Assembly: GCF_004336745.1 (NCBI RefSeq)
Contig: NZ_SJXD01000026.1
Coordinates: 248,001-312,000 of the forward strand
Direction: 5' to 3'
Length of the DNA: 64,000 nt
From: Roseococcus sp. SYP-B2431
GTDB lineage: Bacteria; Pseudomonadota; Alphaproteobacteria; Acetobacterales; Acetobacteraceae
The translations under genes were made by a program, and so were the position numbers. The notes below the pieces were generated by a model. That model searched no databases, was not told where the DNA came from, and was given only the letters and a program-made list of their open reading frames with translations. Position 1 is the first letter of the stretch. Every line of letters starts with the position of its first letter. Below, piece after piece: positions 25,645 to 60,754 of the stretch.

Positions 25645-26595
25645 ATGCACGGCAGGCGTTCGTGGTTGCGTGCGGGGGCCGGCATCGCCGGCGCGGCCGC
25701 GCTGTCCGGCGGGGTCCAGGCCTCGGACTGGCCCAACCGTCCGGTCACGCTCATCGTCCCCTGGGCGCCCGGCGGCGGCACGGATTCCGTGGGGCGCGCC
25801 TTGGGACAGGCGCTGTCGAGGAATCTCGGCGTGCCCGTGCCGGTGATGAACCGCGCGGGCGGCAACGGGACCGTCGGCCATGTCGCGATCCGCGACGCGG
25901 CGCCGGACGGCCATACGATCGGCTTCGTCACGCCGCAGCTCATCACCGGCCCGCTTCTGGGCAGCGTGCCGGTCACCTGGCGCGAGCTGCAGCCGGTCGC
26001 GCTTCTGAACACCGATCCGGGCGCCATCACCGTGGGCGCCCAGAAGCCCTGGCGCAACCTGCCCGAGTTCCTCGAGGAGGCGCGGCGCAATCCGCGGTCC
26101 ATCCGCGTGGGCAACAGCGGCCAGGGCGGCGCCTGGCACATGCTTTCGCTGGAACTGGAGAGGAAGGCTGGGATCGAGCTGATCCACGTGCCCTATGCCA
26201 GCGCCGGGCCCGCGCTGCAGGACCTCGTCGGCGGGCATATCGACGCGGTCACCTTCAGCGCCGTGGAGGTGCGGGCCCCGGTCGGCGGCGGGCAGGCCCG
26301 GATGGTCGCGGTCGCGGCGCCGGAGCGGATGCGCACCCATCCGAACGTGCCGACGGCCAGGGAACAGGGCCTGGACCTCGACGTGAGCACGTGGCGCGGG
26401 CTCGCGACCTCCCGCGGCACGTCGACGCCGGCCCTGGCGCGGCTGGAGAGCGCCGTGCGGCAGGCGCTGCAGGACGAGGTCTTCCAGCAGTTCATGGCCC
26501 AGCAGGGCTTCGGAATCCGGTTCCTCGGCGCGCCGGCCTTCGCGTCGTTCCTGGGCGAGCAGGACACGAAGTACCGGGCGTATTTCAGCAACTGA
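25645..26595 (+). CDS. Bug/TctC-family substrate-binding protein
   Basis: About 316 residues, start at 25645 after CAGGAGGAG. Signal peptide WLRAGAGIAGAAALSGGVQA; then VTLIVPWAPGGGTDSVGRAL, MNRAGGNGTVGHV, VGNSGQGGAWHM and HVPYASAGPALQDLVGG. It is the last clearly chromosomal gene before base composition changes. The next 272 bases (26596-26867) hold no gene that I can support. Confidence 0.9.
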   Translation: MHGRRSWLRAGAGIAGAAALSGGVQASDWPNRPVTLIVPWAPGGGTDSVGRALGQALSRNLGVPVPVMNRAGGNGTVGHVAIRDAAPDGHTIGFVTPQLITGPLLGSVPVTWRELQPVALLNTDPGAITVGAQKPWRNLPEFLEEARRNPRSIRVGNSGQGGAWHMLSLELERKAGIELIHVPYASAGPALQDLVGGHIDAVTFSAVEVRAPVGGGQARMVAVAAPERMRTHPNVPTAREQGLDLDVSTWRGLATSRGTSTPALARLESAVRQALQDEVFQQFMAQQGFGIRFLGAPAFASFLGEQDTKYRAYFSN

Positions 26596-26867
26596 GCCCA
26601 GGCGTTCCCCTGCGCGGCGGCGGACGGCTCGCAGACCCGGGCAGTGGGTTGAGGAAGGCGTCGGGCATATAAGATCTGGCGGAGGAGGTGCGACTCGGTA
26701 CAGGCGGTCTCTAGGCTGGAGCCTTGGAGAGTTGGGCCGGAGTTCGGTCTGCGATTGCGTGGTTAGGGGGCATGCTCAAGCGTTCGGTCGCGTTGAAGGA
26801 GGAATCACTTCATCGCCAACTGCGTGCAATGCTAAGCTTAAGCAGCCGCCGTTTATGAGGGATTCGG

Positions 26868-29800
26868 GTGCCTCACCTAGCAAAACGTCACATCTCTCAA
26901 TACGTCCGGCGCTCTTGCAAGCGCCGCCTGCGGTTTGATCTCTACAGCAACTCCCGCGACGAGGAGGTTATACGAGACCCCTCCGGGAATCTGATCCCAA
27001 ATCCCCCGCCGGAGCGGGAGACCGCCAGGCCAGGCCTACCGATTTTGGCGGAGGAAGGACGGCGAAACGAAGCAGAGCGCTACGAGGAATTGGCTGAGAT
27101 ATTCCCGGCGAATACATCCCGGCCCGTCGTGGGGGACGCCGATGCCAGGCCCATAGTGCATGGCGACGGGCTGATCTTCAGGCTGGAGACGGTCTGGTCG
27201 CGTCTTCTGGACACTCCGCGTTTCCTGATCGAGACGGAATATGCGGTGCCGCCAGCCTTTCAGGAGATTGTTGGCTTAGACGAGATTGTGACCTCCTCGC
27301 TTTGCAACAGAGCGATGGAGCAGACCCTCACCCTCGGACATGCGCGCCCTGACATTATTCAAGCCATGGCAGCGAGTCAGCTCGGCGCCATGGGAGACGT
27401 CAACCTACCGGTGATGGAGATCACTGGATCTGGCGAGATCGTGGGTTTGCCGGACGGAGACGCCCGCATCGGTCTCCGGGTGATTGACTGCAAGCTCGCT
27501 GCCGAGGCGTCGGAGGCACATTTCGCCGAGATCGCCTACTACTGCATGACGCTCGCCGCCTGGTTAGGCGCCACAGTCGACCAGGACGGACGCGTGTTGT
27601 CTGAGCGCTTCTTCGTCCGAGCAGACGCCGCTGTTTGGCCCGGACGGCATGGCGGTTCGACGATGGAGACCAGGCTCCGGGAGGCTGAGGCCGCGGGTAG
27701 GGAGCCTACCGATGTGGAAAATCTCGCGGCCTTTGAGCTTGACCTGGATTATTTGCCTGCACCGGTTTTCACAGCGCGGGTCCGGCGATTCTTCGAGGCG
27801 GATCTCCGGGACGCACTGACGCCAGAAGACTGGAGGGCTATCGGCTATCACGTCGACTCCCGCTGCGTAGGATGTGAGTTCCTCGGGCATCACTGGAACC
27901 GCCGGCACGAAGACGACGCTCCTGAAGCCGATCCGAACCGGCTACTCTACTGCAAGCCCATGGCCAGGGCCGACGGCCACATCAGTCGGATTCCAGGCAT
28001 CACGGATGGCGCCCGTCGAATACTCGAAAGTCAGCATGTCCGCACTGTGGCCGACATTGCGGCAATGTCGCCAGGGGATGCGATCTTCGATGGCCACGGA
28101 TCGCTAAAGGGTATTCGGGCACTAGCCGGCACTCGGGCCCAGGTGCTCGGATCGCGGACAGCCACCGTTGTGCCGGCAGCCGGGAGCACCGCTGTGCTTC
28201 CGAAGCACGTGGATGTGAAAATTCATATCGTCGTGGAGTTCGACCCGGCTAGTGGCATCACAGGCTGTTTTGGCTGGATGGTCGAGCATCGCGGGCTCAC
28301 CGGCAACCAGGCCCGCGTCGCCGAGGTGCAAAGCAAATCGGTAGATGCAGAGCGGAACGCTCTCGTCGCAATGCTCAACGCCATCCAACAAAGCCTTGCA
28401 CTCGCCCTTCAGCAGGTCTGGACGTGGCGAGATGGAACGCCGAGACGACCGACCGCACAGGTGTATTTCTGGGACCGGATCGGATACGAGCACCTCCGTC
28501 GAGTTATCGGCAGGCACCTTTCCTTCCTTGTTGGCGCGCCGCAGCTTCGCGACTTGGCGTGGTTGTTCCCCCCAGAGCAGGTGATCCCGAACCCGGAGAC
28601 GCTGTCCCTCCGAAGCCCGGTCTCAATCGTCTCAGACGCCTTTCGCGCTTTGACGGCGGCAGACTCGCCGCACTTCTACTCGCTCCTCGGCTGCGCCAGG
28701 CTCTTTCATCCGCAGCGCCTAGCAGCATTGGCCGATTACGTCCGCTTTAGAGTGAATCCGGTGTATGAGGACCCGCTTACGGACTACGTCCCCGTCGAGC
28801 GTATACATGAAATTTGGCAGGACCCTGCCGAGATCAACGCACGCAACCTTCGCCGTACCGTCCGCGGCCTTCGTCCCCTTCCGATCCCGTCCGACGTACG
28901 CGATGAATTGCGACGCACCACCGTCGTAAAGCTGCGCGCCCTCTCAGCGGTAACCGAGCGCCTGACAGCGGACCTTCGCGTTGGTCTAGAGGCGAGCGCA
29001 CCCGAGCTACAGGACATCACGACGGCCGGGCGTGTGGAGTCTGGAATCTCTGCAGACGGGCTCGTGTGGCTCGCGCACCGCAAGCTACAGGCGGCATCAG
29101 AGCAGTTCGAGAACGACATGCTTCGTGCCCTCACGTCAGAACAGCGGGAGGCCAAGTTTGCGTCGGCCAGAGTTCGTCGCCTCCTCGTCGGCACTGAGCG
29201 TGCGAACGCGCTTGCTGACCTTGGCCTAGCCGACGTCGGCGGAGACCGGCTGGTGTTTGAGATAGCGGAAGGGTCGCGTGACGCGAAGCTTAAGCCCGGC
29301 ATGGGGTGGTCCCTCATGACCGAAGCGTTAGTCCCGCTGCAGTACGCAACTGTGAGCTCGATGCTAAGGCCGGGCAGCAACGTCCACGCGTTATTGCCTC
29401 GGGGCTTTGTTGCCGATCTTGCTGGCGTGGACCCTTGGCATCTGAAGAAGCGCTTTTTCGAGGTCATGAAGGTCAATATTGCGGCGATCGATCGCTCGCG
29501 CCGGCGCGTGGCCGTTGACCTCGATACCTACGCACGCGCCGCAGGGGTGCCGATCAGCCGTCTGGCGATCAACCATGGCCTAATGGTGCTGCCGCAGGCT
29601 GAAGATTCTCATCCCGACGAGTGGGGCATCATCGATCCAGTCGTGACCGATTTCTCCACCTCCAAGATCCAGGAGGCCCTCGCCGGCATGGGAAATCCCC
29701 CGCTCGCGGTGGCTCGGCCGCGGGTAGGAATGGCTAGGCTTCCGCAGGTGCTCGGCCCTCGTCCAGGCGCTCGAGGACCGCGACAAACGCCTTCGAACCC

Positions 29801-31394
29801 AGTCGAACCGTTCATCTGGGACGCGCGCGGCCTATCGACCACCCCGTCCCGGTTTACTGCAACTGCGGGACTGGCCAATGCCGCTATCGAAGCGCATCGC
29901 CTAACGCAGACGCAGCGGCGCGCCCTTGTTCAGGCAGTCACCCTCAGACTCAGCCTTATCTGGGGGCCGCCCGGCACCGGAAAAAGCTTTACATGCGAGG
30001 CGATGCTCGGCTGCCTTGCGGAGTGGGCCAGGACGACCGGACAAAGGATCCGGATGCTCGTGACCGGGCCGACCTGGACGGCGATCGACAACGTTGCCAA
30101 GCGAATGCCTGCGCGCCTTCGCCGCTTTATGGCCGAGGACGAATTTGCCATCTATCGGCTGAAGTCCTCCCAGGGGGACGACGCGGCCGTCGCGGCCGAG
30201 CTCCGCGACTTCGTCTGCCCAACCGACCAAACTGCCCCCCGGTTCCAGAGCCTCGTGAACGACCTTGCAGTTGGTCCCCCTGTCGTATTGGTGGCGGCGA
30301 CGTCGCATCAGGTTGCGAACCTTGTGCGGAAGTGTGGGCTTTCCCCGAACAATAAACTCCGAGCCGATCTGTTCGACTTCGTCCTGGTGGACGAAGCGTC
30401 GCAGATGGACGTCGCCCATGCGATTATGGCGTTTAGTTCCGTCGCGCCGGAGGCAACCATCACCGTTGTTGGTGACGACAAGCAAATGCCACCGATCCAA
30501 CCCGTGCCGCCTCCGAAGGGCCTCGAGAAGATGGTTGGGTCCATCTACGACTACTACCGTAACGAGGGCACTGCAGCTGACGAAGTGATCCCAACGATGC
30601 TCGACCGGAGTTACCGATCGAACCGGGACATCGTCGAGTTTGTCAGAGAGGCAGGCTACGGGCCCGGGCTGCAGGCGGTGAACCCAGACCAGCGGCTTCG
30701 CCTCTTGGGATCGGTGCCGATTGCCGAGCCGGCAGGGTGGCCTGTCGATCTTGAATGGTCACCTGCGTGGGAGCGCATCCTAGATCCCGAAGAGCCCCTC
30801 GTGGCAGTTCTGCATGCCGACGATATGTCGAGTCAGAGCAATGAGGGAGAGGCGCATGCGGTGGCTGCCCTCGTGCGATCCCTCTGGGGGCGCCTCGCGG
30901 GCATGACAGGAGGGCCGCCGAATGCGTTGGGGACGAACGACCCAATGGACCTGGAGACATTCCTCCGAAGCGGTATAGGGGTGGTTACCCCTCACCGGGC
31001 ACAGCAGGCTACGGTCATCAGCCTTCTGGAACATGCCCTGCCACGCGGTCCCGGACGGGCTGCCCTGTACGAGGCGGTGGACACCGTCGAGCGGTTCCAG
31101 GGACAGGAAAGGCTAGTGATGATCGCGAGCTTGGGCCTGGGTGATGTGGACCAGATCCGGGGCGAGGAGGAGTTTCTCTACTCGCTCAACCGGTTCAACG
31201 TCATTGCCTCCCGCGCGCAGGCCAAGTTCATCCTGTTAGCGAGCCGGCCGCTCATCGACCACATTCCGTCTGACCCCGTCGTGATGCGGCAATCGGCTCT
31301 CATCAAGCACTACGCCGACGGGCACCTCCGCCAAGTCCGGCGCGAGAACCTTCCGCGGCTCGGCCCTTGCGAGATTAGGACGCGGGTGAGGTAG
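26868..31394 (+). CDS. TM0106-like RecB-family nuclease fused to a UPF1/DNA2-type SF1 helicase
   Basis: 1508 residues from a GTG. The N-terminal KRHISQYVRRSCKRRLRFDLY is how these nucleases begin. A Cas4/RecB-like nuclease core includes RVIDCKLAAEASEAHFAEIA near 203-222, then a Cys cluster (CVGC ~333, YCKP ~361), a helix-hairpin-helix (SRIPGITDGARRIL) and an RNase H-like stretch from ~450. The helicase starts near 1020: Walker A GPPGTGKS ~1031, DEASQMD ~1174, GDDKQMPP ~1202, RSYRSNRDIVEF, DTVERFQGQERLVM, and RFNVIASRAQAK ~1445. It should unwind and cut DNA (or RNA-DNA), ATP-driven, in the cytosol. It is less GC-rich than its neighbours and overlaps the convergent methyltransferase by 20 bp. 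Confidence 0.85.
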   Translation: MPHLAKRHISQYVRRSCKRRLRFDLYSNSRDEEVIRDPSGNLIPNPPPERETARPGLPILAEEGRRNEAERYEELAEIFPANTSRPVVGDADARPIVHGDGLIFRLETVWSRLLDTPRFLIETEYAVPPAFQEIVGLDEIVTSSLCNRAMEQTLTLGHARPDIIQAMAASQLGAMGDVNLPVMEITGSGEIVGLPDGDARIGLRVIDCKLAAEASEAHFAEIAYYCMTLAAWLGATVDQDGRVLSERFFVRADAAVWPGRHGGSTMETRLREAEAAGREPTDVENLAAFELDLDYLPAPVFTARVRRFFEADLRDALTPEDWRAIGYHVDSRCVGCEFLGHHWNRRHEDDAPEADPNRLLYCKPMARADGHISRIPGITDGARRILESQHVRTVADIAAMSPGDAIFDGHGSLKGIRALAGTRAQVLGSRTATVVPAAGSTAVLPKHVDVKIHIVVEFDPASGITGCFGWMVEHRGLTGNQARVAEVQSKSVDAERNALVAMLNAIQQSLALALQQVWTWRDGTPRRPTAQVYFWDRIGYEHLRRVIGRHLSFLVGAPQLRDLAWLFPPEQVIPNPETLSLRSPVSIVSDAFRALTAADSPHFYSLLGCARLFHPQRLAALADYVRFRVNPVYEDPLTDYVPVERIHEIWQDPAEINARNLRRTVRGLRPLPIPSDVRDELRRTTVVKLRALSAVTERLTADLRVGLEASAPELQDITTAGRVESGISADGLVWLAHRKLQAASEQFENDMLRALTSEQREAKFASARVRRLLVGTERANALADLGLADVGGDRLVFEIAEGSRDAKLKPGMGWSLMTEALVPLQYATVSSMLRPGSNVHALLPRGFVADLAGVDPWHLKKRFFEVMKVNIAAIDRSRRRVAVDLDTYARAAGVPISRLAINHGLMVLPQAEDSHPDEWGIIDPVVTDFSTSKIQEALAGMGNPPLAVARPRVGMARLPQVLGPRPGARGPRQTPSNPVEPFIWDARGLSTTPSRFTATAGLANAAIEAHRLTQTQRRALVQAVTLRLSLIWGPPGTGKSFTCEAMLGCLAEWARTTGQRIRMLVTGPTWTAIDNVAKRMPARLRRFMAEDEFAIYRLKSSQGDDAAVAAELRDFVCPTDQTAPRFQSLVNDLAVGPPVVLVAATSHQVANLVRKCGLSPNNKLRADLFDFVLVDEASQMDVAHAIMAFSSVAPEATITVVGDDKQMPPIQPVPPPKGLEKMVGSIYDYYRNEGTAADEVIPTMLDRSYRSNRDIVEFVREAGYGPGLQAVNPDQRLRLLGSVPIAEPAGWPVDLEWSPAWERILDPEEPLVAVLHADDMSSQSNEGEAHAVAALVRSLWGRLAGMTGGPPNALGTNDPMDLETFLRSGIGVVTPHRAQQATVISLLEHALPRGPGRAALYEAVDTVERFQGQERLVMIASLGLGDVDQIRGEEEFLYSLNRFNVIASRAQAKFILLASRPLIDHIPSDPVVMRQSALIKHYADGHLRQVRRENLPRLGPCEIRTRVR

Positions 31395-33525
31395 CCAGGG
31401 CTGCGGCCTGCAGCTTTTCCGGACCGGTCTCGCCGGCGATGCCCAGGGAGGCGTCCCAGGGCAGCTTCAACGCGTCGCTGAGGGCAATCGGGCCACTGCC
31501 ATTGGACAGGCTGCTGGCGACGAGGGCGGCGCGCCAGAGATTATCCTGGTCCGCCTTCCGAAACCGGGGCGAGGTGAGGTCGTCGAGAACCCTTGACCAG
31601 CGTTCCACCATGCCGGCGGCGGCAATCACGTCCACATTCGCCGGCTTAGATCGACGCTTGAGGGCCACGTCTTTTCTGACCACGAGGACAGCGTCCCAGG
31701 AGATGCTTTCATCGTGCTTGTGCAGGCTCGTGCCGACGTCCCCTGCGAGGGGGAACACGTTCACGACGCGCAGAGGTGATGAGGCCAGTGCGGAAGCAAG
31801 GCGCTCCCAGCCGACTGCCGTGCGGTGCTGATAGGTGAACACGCCTAAAGCGCCGTCCTTCATCTTCCTTGACACTTCGGCAAAGCATGCGCCGAGCTTC
31901 TCCCGGAAAACGTCCCCTTCCGCATCTGACCGTCCGGGCGCAGCAAGCTGGTCTGGGGGCAGGCCCGGCACCTCCGGCGAATCCACAAGGCCAAGCATTC
32001 GCTGCCAGGGCAGGAAGAAATCAGCGAGCTCTGAGTAGGCAATGTTGTCGAAGTAGGGCGGATCGGTCAGGAGCAGATCTACAGATCCGTCGGGAACGTG
32101 TGCGAGGTGGCTAGCCGGCACATGCCGAACGTCTACCTCACCCTTCTTCTCCTGGCGCGGTGGGAAAAAGCCCCCCGCCGGGTTGTACTCCACGGGAGAA
32201 AGCGCCCACCGCGCTGCGCGCTGAACTGAGCGCACCGCGTTTGGAAAGCCGCCACGGCCGGTGCCCGGGACCCATGGGTTGAGCTCCACCGGGCGGGGGA
32301 TATGACGGAACGCGCGAAGGGCGAAGAGAGGAGAGATTCGGCGATAGCCGAATGCGTATCCGGCCATCATGTTGAGGGACTTGAGGTGGTCGCTGAACGC
32401 GATTGCCAGCGCCTCCCGTTCGAGACCTTCCGGCAACGCTGTGATCGCCCTGGCGAGGAGGAGAAGGTGAAGCCGCTGGCGATCGTTGAAGAGTTCGATG
32501 TAGCGTCGATACCCATAGCGGATTAGGCGGTCATCCGCGCGCCCCTCGTTCGGGATTATGCGGTCTGGCAGGCCAGGACCACCGTCAGCGAGCAACGTTT
32601 TCAGCATGGCGGCCGCAGCGTCCAGCAGCCGGAAGTCATGTTCATCGGCCTTCTGGAATTGGCGCTCCGTCATTGGGACCGCACGTCCGCTCCGGTTGGG
32701 CGGGATAGATTCGGTTGCGAAGAGGCGGAACCGCGGCGGCACTCCGGTGCGCTCCGACAGGTCGATTAGTCGTTCAACCAGGCCACAATGCGGGCAAGTC
32801 GCCGTGCCGAACACGACGGCACCCTTTGCAATCTCCGTGCTGGCGCCGCAAGCGTCGCAGGCAAGGACCTCCTCGCCGACTGGTCGCAGATGCACCTGAT
32901 CGCACTGCCCGCAGAAAACGTGGCGCTCCGGCTTGCCGACCTCGGCAGCTAGCACGTGATGGGGTTGAGCGTCGTACAAAAGACCGCAGCCACGGCACTC
33001 GACTACTTGGACCCAAAAATGATGGAGGATCAAACGGTTGTCGGGGCGCTTATGGAAGCGCTCGACCTCCGCACCGACTTCAGCAGAGAGGCGAGCGAGC
33101 GGCTGCACCAGGTCGCCGAGAGCGTGCATCCGCCCCTGGAACCGGCTAACTGCCACGGCAACGGGATCTACGTCGGTGCCCAGGCAGCGCGCCCCAAGCC
33201 GCTGTCCCTCAACGCAAGAGGTGCCTCCGCCGACGAAAGGATCCAGCAGGGTGATCCCTTCGAGCGAGACTCCGGTCTCGTAGGCCGCCCAAAAATCCCC
33301 GTTCGGGGGAAGAGTCGATGCGAGCAACAGGGCCCGGAAGGCCGACCCAAGGCGGCGGGCGAACCACTTGTGAGCGCCGTAGACAGGACGAGGGCGCTGC
33401 CCCTCGCGGACAGCGATTGTAGCAAGCTCGCGCACCGGTAGGGTGCCGGCCTCCAACATTGTTACCGGAGGTGCGGCCGGCGAGACGTGGCGCCTAGCAG
33501 CCCTCCGTCGCCTCTCCTGGCCCAC
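31375..33525 (-). CDS. Zn-ribbon DNA methyltransferase, DUF1156/COG1743-like
   Basis: About 716 residues from a GTG at 33525 (alternatives: ATG 33612 or ATG 33459). Order: PVYGAHKWFARRLGSAFRAL, SAM-binding LLDPFVGGGTSC near 95, paired zinc ribbons with CRGC, CGQC, CDAC and CPHC between ~175 and 247, then the amino-methyltransferase catalytic motif TDPPYFDNIAYSELADFF near 485. DPPY methylases of this sort modify exocyclic amino groups, mostly N6 of adenine. COG1743 enzymes are known from defence islands. It faces the nuclease-helicase gene and their 3' ends overlap, a layout that suggests they travel as a unit: protection by one, attack by the other. Confidence 0.85.
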   Translation of the reverse strand: MGQERRRRAARRHVSPAAPPVTMLEAGTLPVRELATIAVREGQRPRPVYGAHKWFARRLGSAFRALLLASTLPPNGDFWAAYETGVSLEGITLLDPFVGGGTSCVEGQRLGARCLGTDVDPVAVAVSRFQGRMHALGDLVQPLARLSAEVGAEVERFHKRPDNRLILHHFWVQVVECRGCGLLYDAQPHHVLAAEVGKPERHVFCGQCDQVHLRPVGEEVLACDACGASTEIAKGAVVFGTATCPHCGLVERLIDLSERTGVPPRFRLFATESIPPNRSGRAVPMTERQFQKADEHDFRLLDAAAAMLKTLLADGGPGLPDRIIPNEGRADDRLIRYGYRRYIELFNDRQRLHLLLLARAITALPEGLEREALAIAFSDHLKSLNMMAGYAFGYRRISPLFALRAFRHIPRPVELNPWVPGTGRGGFPNAVRSVQRAARWALSPVEYNPAGGFFPPRQEKKGEVDVRHVPASHLAHVPDGSVDLLLTDPPYFDNIAYSELADFFLPWQRMLGLVDSPEVPGLPPDQLAAPGRSDAEGDVFREKLGACFAEVSRKMKDGALGVFTYQHRTAVGWERLASALASSPLRVVNVFPLAGDVGTSLHKHDESISWDAVLVVRKDVALKRRSKPANVDVIAAAGMVERWSRVLDDLTSPRFRKADQDNLWRAALVASSLSNGSGPIALSDALKLPWDASLGIAGETGPEKLQAAALATSPAS

Positions 33526-33708
33526 GACGTACCCCTTTACCGCAGATAAAATAGCCAAGATGGAGGGAAAGGCAAAAGCCCATTGTTCGCGACAAGTGCA
33601 ATGCCCGCCCAATATCCCACGAGAACGTCCTTATACCTTGCCTTGGAGTAAGGGTAAGCTTTCCTCCTCTCCCTAGGTCGCCAAGGCTGTAACCTTGGAC
33701 CCCGAGGC

Positions 33709-33734
33709 ACCCGGACATTCGACCTGTTCCGGGT
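33709..33734. terminator. Hairpin at the end of the prophage structural operon
   Basis: ACCCGGA (33709-33715) and TCCGGGT (33728-33734) form a 7-bp stem at the stop of the tail-spike gene; a second small hairpin, CCAAGG...CCTTGG, lies at 33681-33696. Together they could stop leftward transcription. No T-tract follows. The rest of 33526-33733 shows no gene. Confidence 0.4.
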
Positions 33735-35575
33735 CACGGCACAAGCCGCTTCGTTACCCCCACCGACAGCGTCGCCGCCGCCAGATCGAACGTCGCCCCG
33801 GAGATGTTACGCGCCATCACCCGCACCGTGTTGTTCGACCACACCGCCGCGTCGAGTTCGATGAACCGCGTCGACGACACCAGCGATGCTTGCGCCAGGT
33901 CGCCCGCCCGCGCCCCGTTCACCGTGACGTCGAGCAGCGATGTCGCCCCCGGCGCCAGGCTCGGCAGGTCCCAGGACACCTCCGCCGCGAACTCCCGTCG
34001 CCCCGAGCCGAACAGCGCCCCCGTCAGCAACGGCGTGCCGTTCAGCACGGCCGGGGCCGCCTCCGGCAGCCCGTAGAGCCGCAGCGATTGCAGGTCGATC
34101 GCCCCGTCGAACCCGATCACCCCCACCTGCGCATAGGCGACGGCCGCGCCAACGCGGATGGTCTGCCGCCGATTGAAGTTCGCATCATCCATTGGCGCGC
34201 CGGCATTCCAGCCCTTGGCCGGCCCGTTCCACTGCATCGTGGTAATCGACGCCAGCACATCGCCGGCAATGTCCTCGCGGACGTTCCCGGCGCCATCGAA
34301 CACCCGCACGAAAAGCCGCCCGCCCGAGGCGCCGCTCGTCAGCCAATGCGCCAGCGCGAACTCCTTCGCCTGCGAGCTGTCGAGCATCCAGCCCAGGCCG
34401 CGGTTCGCCGCCAGCGTCACGGCGCGGTCGGTCGGCGTGACGTCCGTCAGCCCGTTGAAGCAGAAATCCGCCATGAAGGTCGCGGTGGTGGTGGAGGTGG
34501 CGATAGTGATCAGCCCCTCCACCCCGACCTCGGTCGCCGATTGGCGAAACGCCGCCGCGCGAGTGTTGGGCACACCGGCGAGAAATCGCTGGAGGCGCGA
34601 CGCCGGTGCCCGGTGCCGGTTGATCACCGCATTGCCGCAGCGGTTGGCCGTCGCCGTGTAGTCGATGCCGACCAGGTAGGTATTGGTCCAGGCGATGTCG
34701 TACTCGCAGTCCTGCGCGCCCGCCGTGTGCCGCGCCGCCATTGGCGAGCAGGCCTCCATGCGCATGTTGCGCGCGATGATGGCGGAGCCCGAGGTCTGGT
34801 TCAGGAAGGGGATGGCGATGTTGCTGCCGGCCTGACGCAGCTCGAAGTTCGGTGCGTCAAAGACGTGGCGGTTGTGGTTGGTGTAGGCGCCGGGCTCATT
34901 GCCGAAGCGCACGCCGAAGCGGTCCTGCGCGGCATTCACGCCCGTCGCCTGGGCGAAGTGCCCGCCGTAGTACCGGATCGAGGTGTTCCAGGCGGTGGCG
35001 GTCGCGCACCAGATGTCGAGGCCGATGCGGTTGTTGACGATGCGCCCCAGCGTGAAGGTGCTATCCTCGACGCCGCGGCCATCGCCGAGGGTGCGCATGC
35101 CGATGGTGAAGCCTTCCACCCGTCGCAGCTCGATCTGGCTCGCATCGACGTTGCGCACGGTGATGCCGATGTCGGCCTCGGAGGACCAGTCGGACTGCGT
35201 CTGCCGGATGACGTTCAACCCGGTGTAGAGCTTCTCCGCATTGCGGATGGTGCCGCCATCGCCCAGCACCAGCACGGCGGTCGGCGCGGTGCCCGTGTAG
35301 CGGATGGTGCCCTGCATGATCAGGCCGCGCGCGCCGCCCGGCAGGGTGACGGTGCCGGAGACGTTCCAGGTGCCGGGCGGGATCATCGCGAATTTCTGGT
35401 CTGCGCCCGCGCGATCGAAGGCGGCCTGAATGGCCGTGCGATCATCCGCCACGCCATCGCCCAGCCCACCGAAGTCATTCGGCAGCACGGCCTCGCGGTC
35501 ACGCAGGTACTTGGCGAAGTCGGTCTTGTTGAGGTTGGCGTTGAGGACCAGCAGGTCGTCGATACGGGCCGGCAT
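33734..35575 (-). CDS. Tail spike/fibre protein with pectate-lyase-like beta-helix
   Basis: 613 residues. The N-terminal attachment segment (MPARIDDLLVLNANLNKTDF) is followed by PNDFGGLGDGVADDRTAIQAAFDRA, the usual opening of right-handed beta-helix spikes, and by Asn/Gly-rich coil repeats through the middle. The C-terminal ~200 residues look like beta-sandwich domains. It probably binds or degrades a host surface polysaccharide. It is last in the tail operon, 12 bases after the J-like gene. Confidence 0.75.
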   Translation of the reverse strand: MPARIDDLLVLNANLNKTDFAKYLRDREAVLPNDFGGLGDGVADDRTAIQAAFDRAGADQKFAMIPPGTWNVSGTVTLPGGARGLIMQGTIRYTGTAPTAVLVLGDGGTIRNAEKLYTGLNVIRQTQSDWSSEADIGITVRNVDASQIELRRVEGFTIGMRTLGDGRGVEDSTFTLGRIVNNRIGLDIWCATATAWNTSIRYYGGHFAQATGVNAAQDRFGVRFGNEPGAYTNHNRHVFDAPNFELRQAGSNIAIPFLNQTSGSAIIARNMRMEACSPMAARHTAGAQDCEYDIAWTNTYLVGIDYTATANRCGNAVINRHRAPASRLQRFLAGVPNTRAAAFRQSATEVGVEGLITIATSTTTATFMADFCFNGLTDVTPTDRAVTLAANRGLGWMLDSSQAKEFALAHWLTSGASGGRLFVRVFDGAGNVREDIAGDVLASITTMQWNGPAKGWNAGAPMDDANFNRRQTIRVGAAVAYAQVGVIGFDGAIDLQSLRLYGLPEAAPAVLNGTPLLTGALFGSGRREFAAEVSWDLPSLAPGATSLLDVTVNGARAGDLAQASLVSSTRFIELDAAVWSNNTVRVMARNISGATFDLAAATLSVGVTKRLVP

Positions 35576-35587
35576 GGCGTACTCCGA

Positions 35588-37609
35588 TCAGAGGGCGGTG
35601 GCGGTGACCGGGCCGGCGAAAGCCGAGATATTCCCCTCGGCCGAGACGCTGCGCAGCCAGTACCAGCGGGTCTGGCCGGTGGTGAGGCCGGTGCGGTCCC
35701 AGGGCAGCGAGGTCGGCTCGGGGACCAGCTTGGACGCGGCGGCGAGGCTGGCGCTGCTGGCCTCGAAGACCTGCAGCCGGAGCGCATCGGCGGGAAAGCC
35801 ACCCGACAGGCGCACGCCGCCGGCGATGCCCGTTGCAGCCAGGCCTGACGCGGCGGCCGGCACCAGCGCCTCCCGCCAGCCCGACACCGCGCCGCTGCGC
35901 GCCTGCGCCCGCACACGAAAGGCTGTCGGCTCCGCGGTGGGGATGGCCACGGCGGTGGCGCCGAAGCCCCCGGCATAGCCCTGCCAGACAGCGACGGAGG
36001 CTGGGCGGAACTCGATCTCGTAGCCGGCCAGATAGGCCGAGCCCACCGCCGACCAGGAGACCGCGATCGCGCTGAAGGTCACTGCCAGAGGCGTCTCCAC
36101 CAGGATGGCGGCGGGCGCGGCGATCACGCCCGGGTTCGGCAGCACTACCGAGGGGTTCTGCCCCGTCGCCCGCTCATCCGTCGCCGGGTTCCAGGCCCAG
36201 ACGGCGGGATCCTCCTCCGCGAGTTGCAGGTTCACCCCGCCATCCGGCGCCAGCGCCCAGCCCGTCACGCGCGCCGGGAATGGCGTCAGCCGCTCCAGCG
36301 CCACCGTCACCCCATCCCAGGGCCGTAGGCGCAGCGCCGAGAGGTTGGCCTGCATCGCCACCTCGCGCTGGCGGCGGTTGCGCTCCAGCTCGATTTTCAT
36401 CAGGCGCTGGACCGTCGCCGCCGAGGTGGTGAGCGGGAATTCCATGTCCCGGTAGATCGCCTCGCCACCATCCTCGGTGACGTAGTTGCTGGCGAGCAGC
36501 GGCGGGGCGTCGGTCGGCTGCCAGGCGGCGGCCGGCTCGACATAGACGGCGCGCACCCCGTTGAAGAGATCCCGCCGCGGGCGCGAGCCGACGATGGTGA
36601 CGTCGCCACGCAGGTCGTCGGAGGTGAGTGTCGCCGCCGGCAGCGCCGGCGCACCCGCATGGATGTAGAAGCGACCGCCCGACACGACCAGCGCGCCAGC
36701 CATGGCGGCGACCAGCTTGCGGGTGATGGCGATCTTGCCCTCGCCCAGGGTGACGGCGCCGTTGACCGTGTAGCGCCGCTCGGCGGTGCCATCTCGCCGG
36801 CCCATGATCTCGTCGCAGATGTTGGCCGCGGCCATGAGCGCCGGCAGGTCGATATCCGCCCAGGCCGCGCGCCACCCGAAGGGCGAGGTCAGGTACCAAG
36901 CCAGGCACAGCGCCGGATTGTCCGACCAGCCGGTGGCGCCAGTGCGCGGATCGATGATGGTGTCCGCCCCCTCGACGATGGCCGACAGGCTGGGCGCGCC
37001 GGAGGGGAAGGCCTCGGGCCGCAGCTTGAGCCGCACGGCGAGATAGGCCCGCCCCTGGCCGCGATGGGCCGCGGTCCATTGGCTGCCGGTATCGGCGATG
37101 AGATTGGCATTGGCGGCCTGGCTCGGATCGCCGAGGGCGCGGTCGATGCGCAGCAGGCCGACGAACTTCGCGTCGGTGGAGGCGGTGCCGTTCAGAAACA
37201 CCTCGCCGATGGCGCGGACTCGATGCGCGGCCAGGACCACGACGACATGGAGGAAGCCATCGGCGCGACCCTCATCGTCGGTGGCCGAGTGCAGGAACAC
37301 GACCGGGCCCGAGGTGCGGCAGCGGCCGAAGACGATCTGGTGCTCGGTGATGGGCTGGCGGAAGGACTGGGTGCGGCCGGCGCCGGGCGTGCGGGGATCG
37401 AAGCCGGATCCGGGACCGGTGTCGGTCCCTGGCGTGACGTTGGCGCTGCGGGCGGCGGAGGGCGATTTGGGGCGGAAGACCGCGGCACCCACGGCCGAGA
37501 CCACCAGGGCGGCGCCGGCGGCCGCGACGGCGCCCAGGACGCCGCCGCCGATGACGGCGGAGGCCGCGGCACCTGCGGCGGCGGCGATGAAGGGGATGGC
37601 GACGGGCAT
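35588..37609 (-). CDS. Tail tip/central fibre protein (J-like, with fibronectin-type region)
   Basis: 673 residues. The hydrophobic Ala/Gly-rich N-terminus (IPFIAAAAGAAASAVIGGGVLGA) resembles tail-tip proteins of the lambda J/TipJ class. It continues with RQPITEHQIVFGRCRTSGPVVFLH and SGGRFYIHAGAPALPAA, and ends with fibronectin-type beta domains (GYEIEFRPASVAVWQGY, RWYWLRSVSAEGNISAFAGPV). It forms the tail tip and takes part in host recognition. Its start codon shares a base with the tail-peptidase stop at 37609. Confidence 0.75.
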   Translation of the reverse strand: MPVAIPFIAAAAGAAASAVIGGGVLGAVAAAGAALVVSAVGAAVFRPKSPSAARSANVTPGTDTGPGSGFDPRTPGAGRTQSFRQPITEHQIVFGRCRTSGPVVFLHSATDDEGRADGFLHVVVVLAAHRVRAIGEVFLNGTASTDAKFVGLLRIDRALGDPSQAANANLIADTGSQWTAAHRGQGRAYLAVRLKLRPEAFPSGAPSLSAIVEGADTIIDPRTGATGWSDNPALCLAWYLTSPFGWRAAWADIDLPALMAAANICDEIMGRRDGTAERRYTVNGAVTLGEGKIAITRKLVAAMAGALVVSGGRFYIHAGAPALPAATLTSDDLRGDVTIVGSRPRRDLFNGVRAVYVEPAAAWQPTDAPPLLASNYVTEDGGEAIYRDMEFPLTTSAATVQRLMKIELERNRRQREVAMQANLSALRLRPWDGVTVALERLTPFPARVTGWALAPDGGVNLQLAEEDPAVWAWNPATDERATGQNPSVVLPNPGVIAAPAAILVETPLAVTFSAIAVSWSAVGSAYLAGYEIEFRPASVAVWQGYAGGFGATAVAIPTAEPTAFRVRAQARSGAVSGWREALVPAAASGLAATGIAGGVRLSGGFPADALRLQVFEASSASLAAASKLVPEPTSLPWDRTGLTTGQTRWYWLRSVSAEGNISAFAGPVTATAL

Positions 37610-42398: not shown

Positions 42399-43886
42399 AT
42401 GAAGGCCCATCGGAGAATATTCGACGTGAAGCGCAATATGGCGGCGTTGGTTTTCGGCAACGCCAATTACGTGAATGGCGGCATTTTAAAGAACCCTGCC
42501 AACGACGCCGCTGATGTATCGGCTAAGCTGTCATCCTATGGCTTTCATGTAATCGTCGCAACCGACGCGACAAATAAAGAAATGGATAAAAAACTTAAAG
42601 AATTCAAAAAATTACTAGAGGCAAATGATGTAGGTCTTTTCTTTTTTGCAGGCCATGGGATGCAGATAGATGGCCGCAATTATCTGCTGGCGATCGATAC
42701 TGATATATCTGATGAAACAGACGCGAAGCATAGTTCTTTATCGCTCGATAAAGTTATCGACGTGATGGAGAAGTCCAACGCTTCGACGAAAATCATTATC
42801 CTAGATGCCTGCCGCGATAACCCTTGGGAGCGTGCGTGGAGTCGAGCGGCCTCAATCCGCGGCTTAGCGTCGGTCTATGCGCCTAAGGGTACGATCATCG
42901 GCTTTGCCACCTCTCCCGGTGAGCTGGCTTCCGACGGCAAGGGACGTAACGGCACCTATACTGAGGCGCTACTCCAGCATATTGACGAACCGGATCTGAC
43001 AATTGAAACGATGTTTAAGAGGGTGCGAAACACAGTCGCAGCCGAGACACGAGGCAAACAAACTTCGTGGGAACACACCTCTCTATCAGGAAATTTTTTC
43101 TTTAATATTAGCCTTGGAAAAATAATAAAATCTTATCCTGAAATCGCAATCGCTGATGAACTGTTTGTGGTGGACGAGACAAAGCCATCCCACAAAATCA
43201 TTAAGGGTCTAAAGAGTCACAACTGGTATACCCAGAATGCCGTGCTTAGCCAGCTTACCGCTGCGTCGGTCAAGAAGATGACTGACAGTAATCTTTTCGT
43301 TCTTGGACGAAATATTTACCAAGCAGCATGCGGCGGCTCGAACTCAGCTAGGATTTTTGTACTCTCTTTCATGGACGAGACATCTGGCTACCCGGATGAG
43401 AAGCGCAAGGCGCTCCTCGACGGAATGCTGTTCGAGATATTTTTTGACCCAAAAGCAAAACTACGATCAAAAATTAAATCAAATCTCTTTAACGAATTAT
43501 TTGATCTACAGAAATACGCCTCCTTAAAAGAAAGTTTTGAATTTATCGCTGAGGCGCTTATCGCCTCCGACGGAGAATTTTATGCTTTACCGGGGCGCGA
43601 TCATGAATTGGCAGTGACCGTTGGAACCACAAAAGTAAAGGATGCTTACCGAGTTGATGCAATTTACGTCGATGGGATAAATGTATTTCGGGCCGAGGAC
43701 GAAGAATGGACAGTAGGGGGTGAGGAGCAAAAAGTTTATGGACGGAAAAGTGCGGCTGACCTTAAAGAACAATTATCACAGGAACTTGTTGTGCCGATGC
43801 GTTCTCTCAAGCTTACTTACACGCCAGCGTCTGCCGTGAAGGGCGAATTACAGGTTCCTTTCGGCTATACTGTTCGAAAGCCTTGA
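42399..43886 (+). CDS. Caspase-like (peptidase C14) protein, prophage cargo
   Basis: 495 residues. The caspase fold is complete: AALVFGNANYVNGGILKNP, then catalytic His86 in FFFAGHGMQIDGRNYLL and Cys138 in IIILDACRDNPW, followed by GTIIGFATSPGELASDGKGRNGTYTEAL. Residues from about 240 to the end form a second, unassigned domain with no transmembrane segment. Bacterial caspases act as proteases in immune or cell-death pathways. It lies on the strand opposite all tail genes and is strikingly AT-rich, so it was acquired separately. The start may be 42399, GTG 42426 or ATG 42438. It has no partner gene beside it. Confidence 0.88.
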   Translation: MKAHRRIFDVKRNMAALVFGNANYVNGGILKNPANDAADVSAKLSSYGFHVIVATDATNKEMDKKLKEFKKLLEANDVGLFFFAGHGMQIDGRNYLLAIDTDISDETDAKHSSLSLDKVIDVMEKSNASTKIIILDACRDNPWERAWSRAASIRGLASVYAPKGTIIGFATSPGELASDGKGRNGTYTEALLQHIDEPDLTIETMFKRVRNTVAAETRGKQTSWEHTSLSGNFFFNISLGKIIKSYPEIAIADELFVVDETKPSHKIIKGLKSHNWYTQNAVLSQLTAASVKKMTDSNLFVLGRNIYQAACGGSNSARIFVLSFMDETSGYPDEKRKALLDGMLFEIFFDPKAKLRSKIKSNLFNELFDLQKYASLKESFEFIAEALIASDGEFYALPGRDHELAVTVGTTKVKDAYRVDAIYVDGINVFRAEDEEWTVGGEEQKVYGRKSAADLKEQLSQELVVPMRSLKLTYTPASAVKGELQVPFGYTVRKP

Positions 43887-44013
43887 TATTGGAAACTCTG
43901 GATCGCAATCGGAAAAGATGCCCCCCTTAGTATTCGGGTATCGATCATTGCGGATTGAAGCCGCACAGGTCGGATTTCCGCATCAGACAGTTACCGGGCC
44001 CGATTGTCGGCTC

Positions 44014-44967
44014 TCACGCATACTCCGTTCCCGCCTGCTGGTTCCGCAGCACTGCCGTCATCATCCGCGTCGCCGTCGCGTTGAACGCGGCGCGGAAATC
44101 GAAGCTGGCCTCCACTCCGGCCGGCCCCTCGATCGGCGTCTTGGCCAGCGCGAGATAGACCTCGTGCAGCGTGATGGTCAGGCTGCGGTTGGCGTCGATG
44201 GTGAAGGCCAGCGCGAACTCCGCCGAGGTGCCGGCCTGCGCCTGGGCCAGCAGCGTGGTGTTCTCGAAGCGCACGGTGATCTGGCCGGTGCAGCGCGCGA
44301 TTCCGGGATCCACACCCTCGACGCGACGGTCGGCGCGAATGGTGCGCACCGCCTCCATCCCGTTGGCGTAAGTGAGCCGCGCCCCGGTGACCTGCGCCAG
44401 CGCCGAACCGCTGCGGGTGATGGAACCCTGCGCCTTGTTGAACGCGGTGTAGGCGGCGCTGGTCGGCGTGCCGCCTGAGGTGGCACCGGTGCGCACCGAG
44501 CCCTGGCCCAGCAGCCCGAAAGTCGCCGTCGCAGCACCGGTCGGCGTGAAGTCCATCTCCAGCGTGTCGGCACGGACGCCGGTGCACACGTCGAAGGACG
44601 GCACATCGGGATAGCCGATCTCCATCGCATTGCTCGGTAGCGAGGCGGCACCCGATCCGAAGGTGTGGATGAAGTTGGTCGTGCCCGTGGTGGTGGGCGC
44701 GCCGAGCAGCAGTCGCAGCCAGTGCCCGATATTGATCAGGTCCACTGGTACCACCGCCTGGCCGGCGACGGTCACCGTGTCGAGGAACGGCGCTGCGGGA
44801 TCCCGGTTGTTGCCCACGCCGATGACGTCAGCGTCCAACAGCGGCTGCTCGGCACCGAGGTCGCAGGACAGGAAGGGCATCCGCCGCCAGTTGCTGCCAG
44901 GTGCGGTGCCGTAGGTGGTCTCGGGCAGCATGAGCAGGCGGCAATTCGCGCCGATGGCACGGGGCAT
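44014..44967 (-). CDS. Phage tail tube protein
   Basis: 317 residues, start at 44967 after AGGAGA. The N-terminal LMLPETTYGTAPGSNWRRMPFLSCDLGAEQPLLDADVIG is typical of major tail proteins of this group (early TYG-A-P segment and a GAEQ strand). The rest is beta-rich, with SGSALAQVTGARLTYANGMEAV and FALAFTIDANRSLTITLHEVYL. It polymerises to form the tail tube. It ends 127 bases from the caspase gene, tail-to-tail; that gap shows no feature. Confidence 0.8.
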   Translation of the reverse strand: MPRAIGANCRLLMLPETTYGTAPGSNWRRMPFLSCDLGAEQPLLDADVIGVGNNRDPAAPFLDTVTVAGQAVVPVDLINIGHWLRLLLGAPTTTGTTNFIHTFGSGAASLPSNAMEIGYPDVPSFDVCTGVRADTLEMDFTPTGAATATFGLLGQGSVRTGATSGGTPTSAAYTAFNKAQGSITRSGSALAQVTGARLTYANGMEAVRTIRADRRVEGVDPGIARCTGQITVRFENTTLLAQAQAGTSAEFALAFTIDANRSLTITLHEVYLALAKTPIEGPAGVEASFDFRAAFNATATRMMTAVLRNQQAGTEYA

Positions 44968-57665: not shown

Positions 57666-58934
57666 CTATGTTTCGGCGGTCTGGATCACATCATGATCGA
57701 CGACGCCACGCGCCGCGGCGACATCGGCGAAGATGCGATCATCACCCTCCAGCACGGCGGCTTCGCCGGTCGTCTCCTGCCACCGCCGCACGATGACATC
57801 GGCATAGGCGGGGTCGATCTCCAGCAGCACCGCGCGCCGCCCCGTGCGTTCGGCAGCGATCATGGTGGTGCCCGAGCCGCCGAAGCAGTCCAGCACTGTG
57901 TCGCGCGGCTTGCTGCTGTTGCGGATGGCGCGCTCGACCAGCGCCACCGGCTTCATCGTCGGGTGCAGGTCATTCCGCGCCGGCTTGTCGAAGTGCCAAA
58001 CATTCCCCTGGTCACGCGCGCCGCACCAATAGTGCTGCGCGCCGGCCTTCCATCCGTAGAGCATCGCCTCGAACTGCTGGTGGTAGTCGGCGCGGCCGAG
58101 CGCGAAGGTGTTCTTCGCCCAGATGATGGTGCTCGACCACTTCCCACCGGCCTCCTGCCAGACGCGATGCAGCGTCGGCCATTCGGAGGAGGACATGCAG
58201 ACGTAGCAGGCGCCCTTGGTCACCGAGAGCAGGTTGGTCAGCGCCGGCCGCAGGAACTCCGGAAAGCCGCCGCCGAGCGCGTCGTTGGCGATGGTCATCT
58301 TGGCCGCGGTGCCGCCCTCGTAGGCCACATTGTAGGGCGGATCGACGAAGCCCATGTCGGCCAAGTGGCCGGCGCCGAGCGCACGCTGGACATCATCGAT
58401 CTTGGTCGCGTCGCCGCAGAGCAGCCGGTGCTCGCCGCAGCGCCAGAGGTCGCCGGCGCGCGTGACGGGCACCACCGGCGGCGGTGGAGCCTCGTCGGCG
58501 TCATCGCCAAGGCCCGCATCGGCTGCCGCCAGCAGACGGTCGAGCTCCATGCCCGAGAAGCCGAGCACGTCGAGATCGACCACGGCCTCGTCACGGATGC
58601 GGGCGATCTCCGCGGCCAGCAGCGCCTCGTCCCAGCCGGAGTTCAGGGCGATCTGGTTATCGGCCAGGCGAAGGGCTCGCGCCTGCGCAGGGGAGAGATG
58701 TCCGAGCTGCAGCACCGGTACCGCGACCAGGCCCAGCTGCTTGGCCGCCATGACGCGGCCGTGGCCGGCAATGAGCACGCCCTCTGCGTCGACCAGCACT
58801 GGGTTCACGAAGCCGAACTCGGCGATGGACGCCGCGATCTGCGCCACCTGCGACGGCGAATGCGTGCGCGCGTTCTCGGCATAGGGGACCAGCGCTGCCA
58901 GCGGCAGAGCGGAGATCACGAGGTCAGGCTGCAT
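57666..58934 (-). CDS. ParB-domain N6/N4 DNA methyltransferase, DPPY type
   Basis: About 422 residues, start at 58934 with GGAGG upstream; it overlaps the previous stop by 11 bases. The N-terminal ParB-like domain has NARTHSPSQVAQIAASIAEFGFVNPVLVD and AGHGRVMAAKQLG; then the methyltransferase with FVDPPYNVAYEGGTAAKM, SSTIIWAKNTFALGRADYHQQFE, LHPTMKPVALVERAI and the SAM motif VLDCFGGSGTTMIAAERTGR. Likely an adenine methyltransferase that marks phage DNA against host restriction. Confidence 0.88.
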   Translation of the reverse strand: MQPDLVISALPLAALVPYAENARTHSPSQVAQIAASIAEFGFVNPVLVDAEGVLIAGHGRVMAAKQLGLVAVPVLQLGHLSPAQARALRLADNQIALNSGWDEALLAAEIARIRDEAVVDLDVLGFSGMELDRLLAAADAGLGDDADEAPPPPVVPVTRAGDLWRCGEHRLLCGDATKIDDVQRALGAGHLADMGFVDPPYNVAYEGGTAAKMTIANDALGGGFPEFLRPALTNLLSVTKGACYVCMSSSEWPTLHRVWQEAGGKWSSTIIWAKNTFALGRADYHQQFEAMLYGWKAGAQHYWCGARDQGNVWHFDKPARNDLHPTMKPVALVERAIRNSSKPRDTVLDCFGGSGTTMIAAERTGRRAVLLEIDPAYADVIVRRWQETTGEAAVLEGDDRIFADVAAARGVVDHDVIQTAET

Positions 58935-60393: not shown

Positions 60394-60754
60394 GATGCCA
60401 TCCGGTTTGCAGGTGGTTTGCAGGGCCGCGGCGCGGCATCGGTTTGCAGCTAACGATTTGAAGCCGCGGGCGAAGGCTGCAAACCGCAACCCATATTTTC
60501 GGCCTGGCGCTAGCGATGTTGCGCGCTTCCGCCCCCCGCATACAGCGGGGCCAGGAAGGAACCATCGGCTCGAGAGCCACTGTGGCTGAACAGCGGGTCA
60601 GTGGCTCGGGAGCCACTCTGCTGCGGTCGCAATTCAACGACTGTCGAAACACTATCCCTTCTGGTTCCGGTGCCGCAATCGCGTTTCAGCAGCGCCACGA
60701 CTGCGTGGTGGACAATGTCTATACAGAGTCGTAGAACCAGCCTCGGAGGCCACC
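60394..60754. other. Intergenic control region between methyltransferase and TacA genes
   Basis: 361 bases between two divergent genes. It holds nested inverted repeats between 60567 and 60617 and a TGTCTATACAGAG segment near 60715 that may form a promoter for tacA. A weak open frame reaching to 60489 looks like non-coding read-through of the methyltransferase frame. No other gene was found. Confidence 0.5.
60567..60617. repeat. Inverted repeats GGCTC/GAGCC
   Basis: Three inverted repeats: GGCTC-GA-GAGCC (60567-60578), AGCCAC-T-GTGGCT (60575-60587) and AGTGGCTC-GG-GAGCCACT (60600-60617, 8-bp arms). They share GGCTC/GAGCC and look like repressor sites for the divergent promoters. Confidence 0.55.

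Follow-up and report, generated by a model that had tools for sequence, protein, structure and literature searches.

A 64,000-nucleotide stretch of the genome of Roseococcus sp. SYP-B2431 (contig NZ_SJXD01000026.1, positions 248,001 to 312,000; hereafter the window, numbered from its first letter) carries two genes, one for a nuclease-helicase and one for a DNA methyltransferase, that form a conserved, co-inherited unit with its catalytic residues kept. Judging from sequence comparisons, we propose that this pair is a minimal two-gene restriction-modification-like defence system with a superfamily 1 (SF1)/Cas4-type restriction subunit, a reading to which we assign a probability of about 0.72. 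The nuclease-helicase gene (26868..31394, + strand) is an open reading frame (ORF) of 1508 amino acids with a GTG start, and its N-terminus aligns with those of its relatives. The methyltransferase gene (31375..33612, - strand) encodes 745 amino acids when read from the first TTG at 33612. A preliminary description of this DNA had reported two convergent ORFs with 3' ends overlapping by 20 bp; both are present as described, and the shared segment spans 31375..31394.

Linkage of the nuclease-helicase to a methyltransferase gene

Relatives were collected with the nuclease-helicase as the only query, and no methyltransferase was used to find loci. When genome contigs were scanned with the family minus its helicase part (A4), 88 places were confirmed and the best 80 kept; three plasmid loci and nine distinct viral contigs bring the total to 92 loci besides the window. 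Left out before counting were the window itself (L001), L010, L011 and L015 (copies of L042, L027 and L087), L002 and L003 (shorter cuts of two among those copies), L014, L018 and L024 (the same place as L013), and L004, L005, L009, L025 and L026, which were DpdJ-like or matched the helicase part alone. The loci are spread over many phyla and include one archaeal record; many are metagenome bins, where mis-binning can mimic such a spread. Isolates alone cross classes, with Gluconobacter, Azospirillum, Chromobacterium and Billgrantia in one clade.

The nuclease-helicase gene is complete at 81 of the 92 loci, and 80 of these are informative, L052 having been set aside for its methyltransferase fragment at a contig end. 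A methyltransferase gene lies within 250 bp at 76 of the 80 and 1.3-4.0 kb downstream at three more (L064, L097 and L103), so that 79/80 have one within 4 kb and a single locus (L034) has none. Where at least 1.3 kb of flank is available on both sides, the partner is within 250 bp at 64 of 68 loci. The 79 partners fall into three distinct types that have a common methyltransferase core and whose profiles cross-detect weakly: a DUF1156-like type (36 loci), a short type of ~370 amino acids (34 loci) and a third type of ~360 amino acids (nine loci). The 1.30 Mb of flanking DNA contains 14 other methyltransferase-like ORFs, including the three far partners and one partner fragment, and the largest other cluster of neighbours occurs at no more than 12 loci. 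In a small control, none of four TM0106-annotated nuclease-helicases had a methyltransferase-profile match within ~5 kb of the matched part. Across 395 genomes from the same order, for which a first look scored few candidates per genome, the family-specific part was matched in three, and a methyltransferase above 500 bits was found only in the two with a full-length nuclease-helicase, the next best scoring 207 bits.

The preliminary description had named rare co-occurrence of the two families as the finding that would overturn its proposal of restriction-modification logic in two proteins; seen from the nuclease-helicase side, these counts refute rare co-occurrence. A methyltransferase linked to a DNA-cutting enzyme, as expected of restriction-modification, is what they reveal, with the cutting activity predicted from conserved residues. 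Because nearly every informative locus holds a methyltransferase within 4 kb, the proposed logic is well supported by the genomics; the convergent layout that accompanied it is not general.

The nuclease-helicase gene is partial or split at the remaining 11 loci. Four of these have a methyltransferase (L022, L028, L029 and L045), three do not (L006, L027 and L048), and four run off the contig (L054, L083, L099 and L104). The cut-short or split copies of Roseicella, Methylobacterium extorquens AM1 and Pseudoroseicyclus have no such methyltransferase nearby. The Roseicella frigidaeris gene is 86% identical, with a match that stops ~98 bp before the contig end, and may be broken or cut by the assembly only; the gene is in two frames in M. 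extorquens AM1 (L006) and split in Pseudoroseicyclus. Genome-wide methyltransferase searches, which covered the DUF1156-like type, found none in the R. frigidaeris and Pseudoroseicyclus genomes, and no methyltransferase was found in 28 kb around the M. extorquens gene.

Small searches started instead from the methyltransferase. One of 398 genomes of the phylum returned five matches; only the window's own exceeded 800 bits, and the other four scored 375-411 bits. A search of 23 viral loci gave two close matches, one 100% identical and one with 43% identity, and only the latter was accompanied by a nuclease-helicase match; the identical contig is probably this genome's own prophage. One phage record matched the helicase part only, and a megablast search of the E. 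coli genomes for the Pluralibacter pair was negative.

Co-inheritance and gene order

Distances among the nuclease-helicases are correlated with those among their partners (Mantel r 0.79 for 34 DUF1156-like pairs including the window, and 0.74 for 34 short-type pairs), and 0/2000 permutations reached the observed r in either case; the test permutes related sequences and so indicates shared history, not function. Taken together, the linkage counts, the neighbour clusters and the distance correlation rule out chance adjacency of the two genes.

Gene order varies with partner type. Short-type genes are convergent at 28/34 loci; 26 of these 28 are adjacent, the other two being L097 and L103, and 25 of the 26 adjacent pairs have -9 to +17 bp between their 3' ends (165 bp at L078). 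The third type is upstream at 9/9 loci. The 36 DUF1156-like genes are upstream at 24 loci, downstream at nine and convergent at three, to which the window adds a further convergent case. The convergent orientation noted in the preliminary description therefore holds for the window and the short type, but not for the DUF1156-like type. On the nuclease-helicase tree, built with FastTree under a warning on long branches, partner type changes twice, the minimum for three types, and orientation six times.

In the same tree the window nuclease-helicase pairs with that of Roseicella, and the two then join ten copies from Alphaproteobacteria, Gammaproteobacteria and viral contigs; in nine of these ten a co-directional methyltransferase gene lies downstream. 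The window methyltransferase groups with the same nine in its own tree (support 98). Since nine of the nearest relatives are co-directional and both trees agree, the arrangement in the window is most simply explained by an inversion of the methyltransferase gene in its lineage. A methyltransferase swap in this lineage, hinted at by 49% identity to a Chloroflexi copy, was ruled out by the tree.

Domains of the nuclease-helicase

In members of the family, which are ~1400 amino acids long, a Cas4/Dna2-like nuclease is joined to an RNase H-like region and an SF1 helicase. The preliminary description had assigned the latter two domains and a RecB-like nuclease to the window protein, and this account is borne out by profiles and near-invariant residues. 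The PD-(D/E)XK nuclease region (26868..27983, + strand; ~residues 1-372) has a fitting predicted secondary structure. In the family alignment, which has 97 rows including pieces and from which each count omits gapped rows, D162 is found in 90/90, K209 in 91/91, E221 in 90/91 and Y225 in 90/91 sequences. D207 occurs in 88/91, the exceptions being two glutamates and one asparagine, the latter in a split gene. Four cysteines are similarly conserved (C17 in 89/89, C333 in 92/92, C336 in 90/92 and C362 in 92/92), and both C336 exceptions are pieces of split genes. We take these five residues and four cysteines to reflect the arrangement seen in Cas4/Dna2-type nucleases that carry an iron-sulfur cluster, of which C17, C333, C336 and C362 could be the ligands.

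The RNase H-like region (28206..28535, + strand; ~residues 447-556) contains D459 (92/92), E495 (93/93) and an aspartate or glutamate at position 536 (93/93; D536 in the window). In the predicted model (mean predicted local distance difference test score, pLDDT, 87.6) D459 ends a strand, E495 lies in the next helix and residue 536 is just past a later strand, an order on strands and helix that, in the model, is as in the RNase H fold. Residue 461 is glutamate in no family member, so this is not a standard DnaQ site. Foldseek searches of the Protein Data Bank (PDB) with the model of the nuclease half gave no match at E 0.001 (top row, E 0.11), and the RNase H-like assignment consequently relies on the pattern of residues together with the predicted secondary structure; several lower rows, with E 0.8-2, belong to proteins that have an RNase H fold (endonuclease V and Argonaute). 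A profile of the nuclease half searched against PDB sequences had a single match, an unrelated receptor at E 1.1.

The helicase (29874..31313, + strand; ~residues 1003-1482) is of the UPF1/DNA2-like SF1 type. HMMER placed AAA_11, AAA_12 and others above their Pfam cut-offs, the motifs GPPGTGKS, DEAS, GDDKQMPPI, YRSN, VERFQGQ and SRA are present, and the closest solved structures include UPF1/NAM7, SMUBP-2 and DNA2.

The methyltransferase

The DPPY methyltransferase with a zinc ribbon, likened to COG1743 in the preliminary description, was recovered with its motifs and four CxxC pairs. The S-adenosylmethionine (SAM)-binding motif I, DPFVGGGT, lies at 33220..33243 (- strand; residues 124-131) and the catalytic motif IV, DPPY, at 32053..32064 (- strand; residues 517-520). 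Between them is a double zinc-ribbon-like insert (32785..32997, - strand) with the pairs C206/209, C234/237, C252/255 and C273/276, and these eight cysteines are invariant across 37 sequences (alignment A7). The protein scored 15.8 bits against Pfam DUF1156 (PF06634; cut-off 24) and 71.7 bits against the anti-phage DUF1156 family NF042963 (cut-off 1000). By sequence it is thus a DUF1156/COG1743-type relative, but no member of either family by the curated cut-offs. Foldseek with the predicted model (mean pLDDT 87.6) had no PDB match at E 0.001; the top row, below that threshold, is a SAM methyltransferase (E 3e-3, probability 1.00), and SAM methyltransferases make up the majority of the best 50 rows.

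The start of the gene is uncertain, since an in-frame GTG at 33525 is available, similarity to the Gluconobacter copy starts at residue 50, and residues 1-17 and 41-44 have a pLDDT below 50. The GTG at 33525 and an in-frame ATG at 33459 are both likelier starts than the TTG at 33612.

Genomic setting of the pair

The pair has a GC content of 0.631 (nuclease-helicase 0.626, methyltransferase 0.641), compared with 0.707 on the left side; two stretches on the right side have 0.72 and 0.71. GC at third codon positions (GC3) is 0.715 and 0.721 in the two genes and 0.86-0.92 in six flanking genes, which confirms the earlier observation that the composition is unlike that of the chromosome on the left. 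As GC and GC3 are alike within the pair and unlike either side, the two genes were probably acquired as a unit, independently of either flank. The left neighbours are TctC-type receptor genes and a gene for a BNR-repeat protein. In two genomes of the same genus, homology stops at the stop codon of the left-hand TctC gene; different genes follow in one (G234), and the contig ends ~460 bp further on in the other (G395). The proteins to the right match tail-spike, tail, tape-measure, head, terminase and other phage families of PHROGs. The pair had been placed at a prophage edge, and the phage proteins to the right agree with this, but its composition differs from that of the prophage genes too, so there is no sign that it belongs to the prophage. 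A search of 80 kb of the contig for repeats of the two intergenic ends detected none longer than 15 bp, and no attachment repeat. A look for terminator-like hairpins around the overlap (31100-31700) was negative, and an Rfam scan of 26000-36000 gave nothing at the gathering threshold.

Several copies of the pair sit among other defence genes, and Hachiman adjoins the Gluconobacter pair. Genes near the family members include dGTPase-like genes (8 loci), HsdM-like genes (9 loci) and a UvrD-PDDEXK / methyltransferase / ResIII-TnsA-like set (7, 8 and 6 loci, by gene). This set, with an N6/N4 methyltransferase, is upstream at L013, L017, L023, L080, L087, L089 and L106, and its ResIII-TnsA-like protein was clustered at 6/7 of these loci. 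The dGTPase-like gene and, at 4 loci, an ORF of ~260-380 amino acids adjoin several members, as noted for L038 (6585-8821) and L012; a single copy of the ORF was scanned, without a Pfam match.

Three other features of the window were noted. Just left of the pair, a ~60-90 bp stretch at 26673-26760 recurs with 82-90% identity in several related genomes and has no Rfam match at the gathering threshold. In the tail region of the prophage, 42399-44478 holds a caspase-domain (Peptidase_C14) gene and a 186-amino-acid ORF of unknown family at 52% GC, against ~71% around it, and is possibly a second defence module. At 57666-60489 are two tandem prophage ORFs, each with a ParB-like part and a DNA methyltransferase part (phrog_498).

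Proposed mechanism and alternative explanations

As a restriction-modification-like system, the pair would use its methyltransferase to mark a short sequence motif in host DNA, and the nuclease-helicase would be the restriction subunit, acting on DNA that lacks the mark. Such DNA would be unwound by the SF1 helicase and cut by the Cas4/Dna2-like nuclease; the RNase H-like region perhaps also cuts.

Several observations weigh against this model. The main one is Methylobacterium hispanicum (L034), where an intact nuclease-helicase with all motifs stands alone: the three methyltransferase profiles have no match in the surrounding 21.8 kb, and the DUF1156-like type has none in the genome. This copy is syntenic with that of M. 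extorquens AM1, where the DNA is 85% identical. The split copies L028 and L045 still have a methyltransferase. The archaeal L054, cut by a contig end, has none in the 4.6 kb upstream, where its nearest relatives carry theirs. Two plasmid-borne methyltransferases of the short type, in Allochromatium and Mesorhizobium, lack a nuclease-helicase within 6 kb, which makes the pairing weaker when viewed from the methyltransferase side. No solved structure matching the nuclease or the RNase H-like part was found, and a neighbourhood of defence genes does not prove a defence function.

An alternative is defence without classical restriction, with the methyltransferase as an effector part or regulator, as in BREX- or Pgl-like systems, and the nuclease-helicase as a Hachiman-like sensor of intermediates of replication or damage, so that methylation only limits self-damage. 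Dna2-like enzymes work at ends or flaps and not at a sequence motif, which fits this scheme, as do the persistence of the Methylobacterium gene without a methyltransferase and the Hachiman genes beside the Gluconobacter pair, Hachiman being a damage-sensing nuclease-helicase according to the accessible part of PMC12278908. However, the sole constant partner is a methyltransferase, of three types, a pattern consistent with the mark itself having a role, and we consider the alternative unlikely. The same Methylobacterium copy, with its synteny and vertical-looking history, could also speak for a repair or recombination pair in which Dna2/AddB-like end processing and a methyltransferase have a role not chiefly antiviral, and the domains do follow the order found in Dna2-type enzymes. 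We regard this as very improbable given the patchy distribution (3/395 genomes of the order, for the family-specific part), the occurrence of copies next to phage genes, on plasmids and in the company of defence genes, and the foreign composition.

The pair might instead be a cargo module with which the neighbouring prophage excludes rival phages, an idea compatible with restriction-modification. It directly adjoins the tail-spike end of the prophage, and relatives lie on nine distinct viral contigs among the 92 loci. Its GC3 of 0.72, however, differs from the 0.87-0.92 of four prophage genes, and no repeat of the two intergenic ends longer than 15 bp was found within the 80 kb. Viral contigs can include host flank; the contig whose methyltransferase piece is 100% identical starts within that gene, so the predicted viral boundary cuts through it. 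We consider cargo status unlikely.

Comparison with known systems

Neither window protein reaches a Pfam or NCBIfam cut-off, except for generic AAA helicase domains, and none of six proteins of relatives reaches an NCBIfam cut-off; the short and the third type of methyltransferase do score above the cut-off of Pfam's generic N6_N4_Mtase. With PADLOC, all 13 matches of the nuclease-helicase and the best 25 of 43 for the methyltransferase are partial. DISARM comprises DrmA/DrmB (DUF1998) and a PLD-type DrmC; membership was rejected, as no Drm profile is among these PADLOC matches, and no DISARM gene is named among the flanking proteins examined. Type III restriction-modification systems consist of Mod and Res, the latter a superfamily 2 (SF2) helicase with a C-terminal PD-(D/E)XK nuclease. 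The pair resembles them in having two genes, a methyltransferase and an ATP-driven helicase-nuclease, and no separate specificity subunit. Unlike Res, however, its helicase is SF1, matching SF1 families and UPF1/DNA2 structures and no ResIII, and its nuclease is N-terminal and Cas4/Dna2-like with four cysteines; Type III membership was therefore rejected. Two relatives have weak ResIII matches (22.2 and 16.7 bits; cut-off 22.5) alongside far stronger SF1 matches.

The BREX-related BR/Hma systems, which centre on DUF499, likewise join an N6-methyltransferase and a helicase protein, and the HmaB profile matches the window methyltransferase at E 7e-16. Their tripartite core, as given in the accessible part of PMC12839542, includes a DUF499 ATPase. 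The window helicase has no HmaA profile match, and the flanking proteins examined include no BrxC, DUF499 ATPase or PglZ, so BREX and BR (Hma) membership was rejected; the methyltransferase has weak PglX matches. The absence of DISARM and BREX core genes given in the preliminary description thus stands for these flanking proteins. UvrD-Cas4 fusions with Type III Mod/Res, described in the accessible part of PMC5704561, also combine a Cas4-like nuclease with an SF1 helicase in a methyltransferase neighbourhood, but theirs is a UvrD-type helicase with a C-terminal nuclease; at some loci a UvrD-PDDEXK gene set lies upstream of the pair as a separate cluster. The PLuB helicase family (NF040671) was rejected at 86.5 bits against 999, with the helicase part only matched. 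TM0106-type proteins (TIGR03491) share nuclease, RNase H-like and helicase parts, but the match is weak and partial (residues 362-549; E 1e-4, 21.4 bits against a curated 97.45); those proteins are shorter (1124-1153 amino acids in four), without a methyltransferase-profile match beside them, and membership was rejected. No description of the pair was found in the literature searched, which held few subscription papers and included the accessible parts of PMC12839542, PMC12458937, PMC5704561 and PMC11090510.

The best PADLOC match of the nuclease-helicase is the SF1 part of DpdJ (E 4.7e-41), covering only 43-474 of 2112. In the Dpd cluster of a Skermanella rosea plasmid, a 771-amino-acid protein (L009, 11284-13599; annotated hypothetical) overlaps DpdJ by 4 bp and is matched by hhalign to the nuclease/RNase H-like half with a probability of 99.8% (E 1e-27, 663 columns); it has no PADLOC match at E 0.001. 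A comparable layout of two genes is present in Methylobacterium sp. XJLW, with no dpdA or dpdB listed within 21 kb. Dpd differs in that the parts are divided between two proteins, of which the second carries an additional large helicase part, and in that the mark is made by base exchange, not methylation. Membership was rejected, since DpdJ is matched in its SF1 part only and no transglycosylase is named among the flanking proteins examined. Because the 771-amino-acid protein and DpdJ match the two halves of the nuclease-helicase, a homologous effector occurs with a different DNA mark. We tentatively raise the possibility, on balance a doubtful one, of a widespread unnamed restriction class in which one Cas4/RNase H/SF1 effector senses the missing mark of any chemistry, being paired with three methyltransferase types here and, in split form, with 7-deazaguanine in Dpd. 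On this reading the effector would stay while the mark-writing module is exchanged, and tight 3'-to-3' convergence would have evolved repeatedly, perhaps to balance both activities through opposing transcription. If the pair restricts phage, it would be among the simplest ATP-driven restriction systems, with an SF1/Cas4-type enzyme where two-gene Type III systems have an SF2 helicase, and would tie methylation-based restriction to Dpd by a common effector; as the two genes fit one plasmid, this is directly testable.

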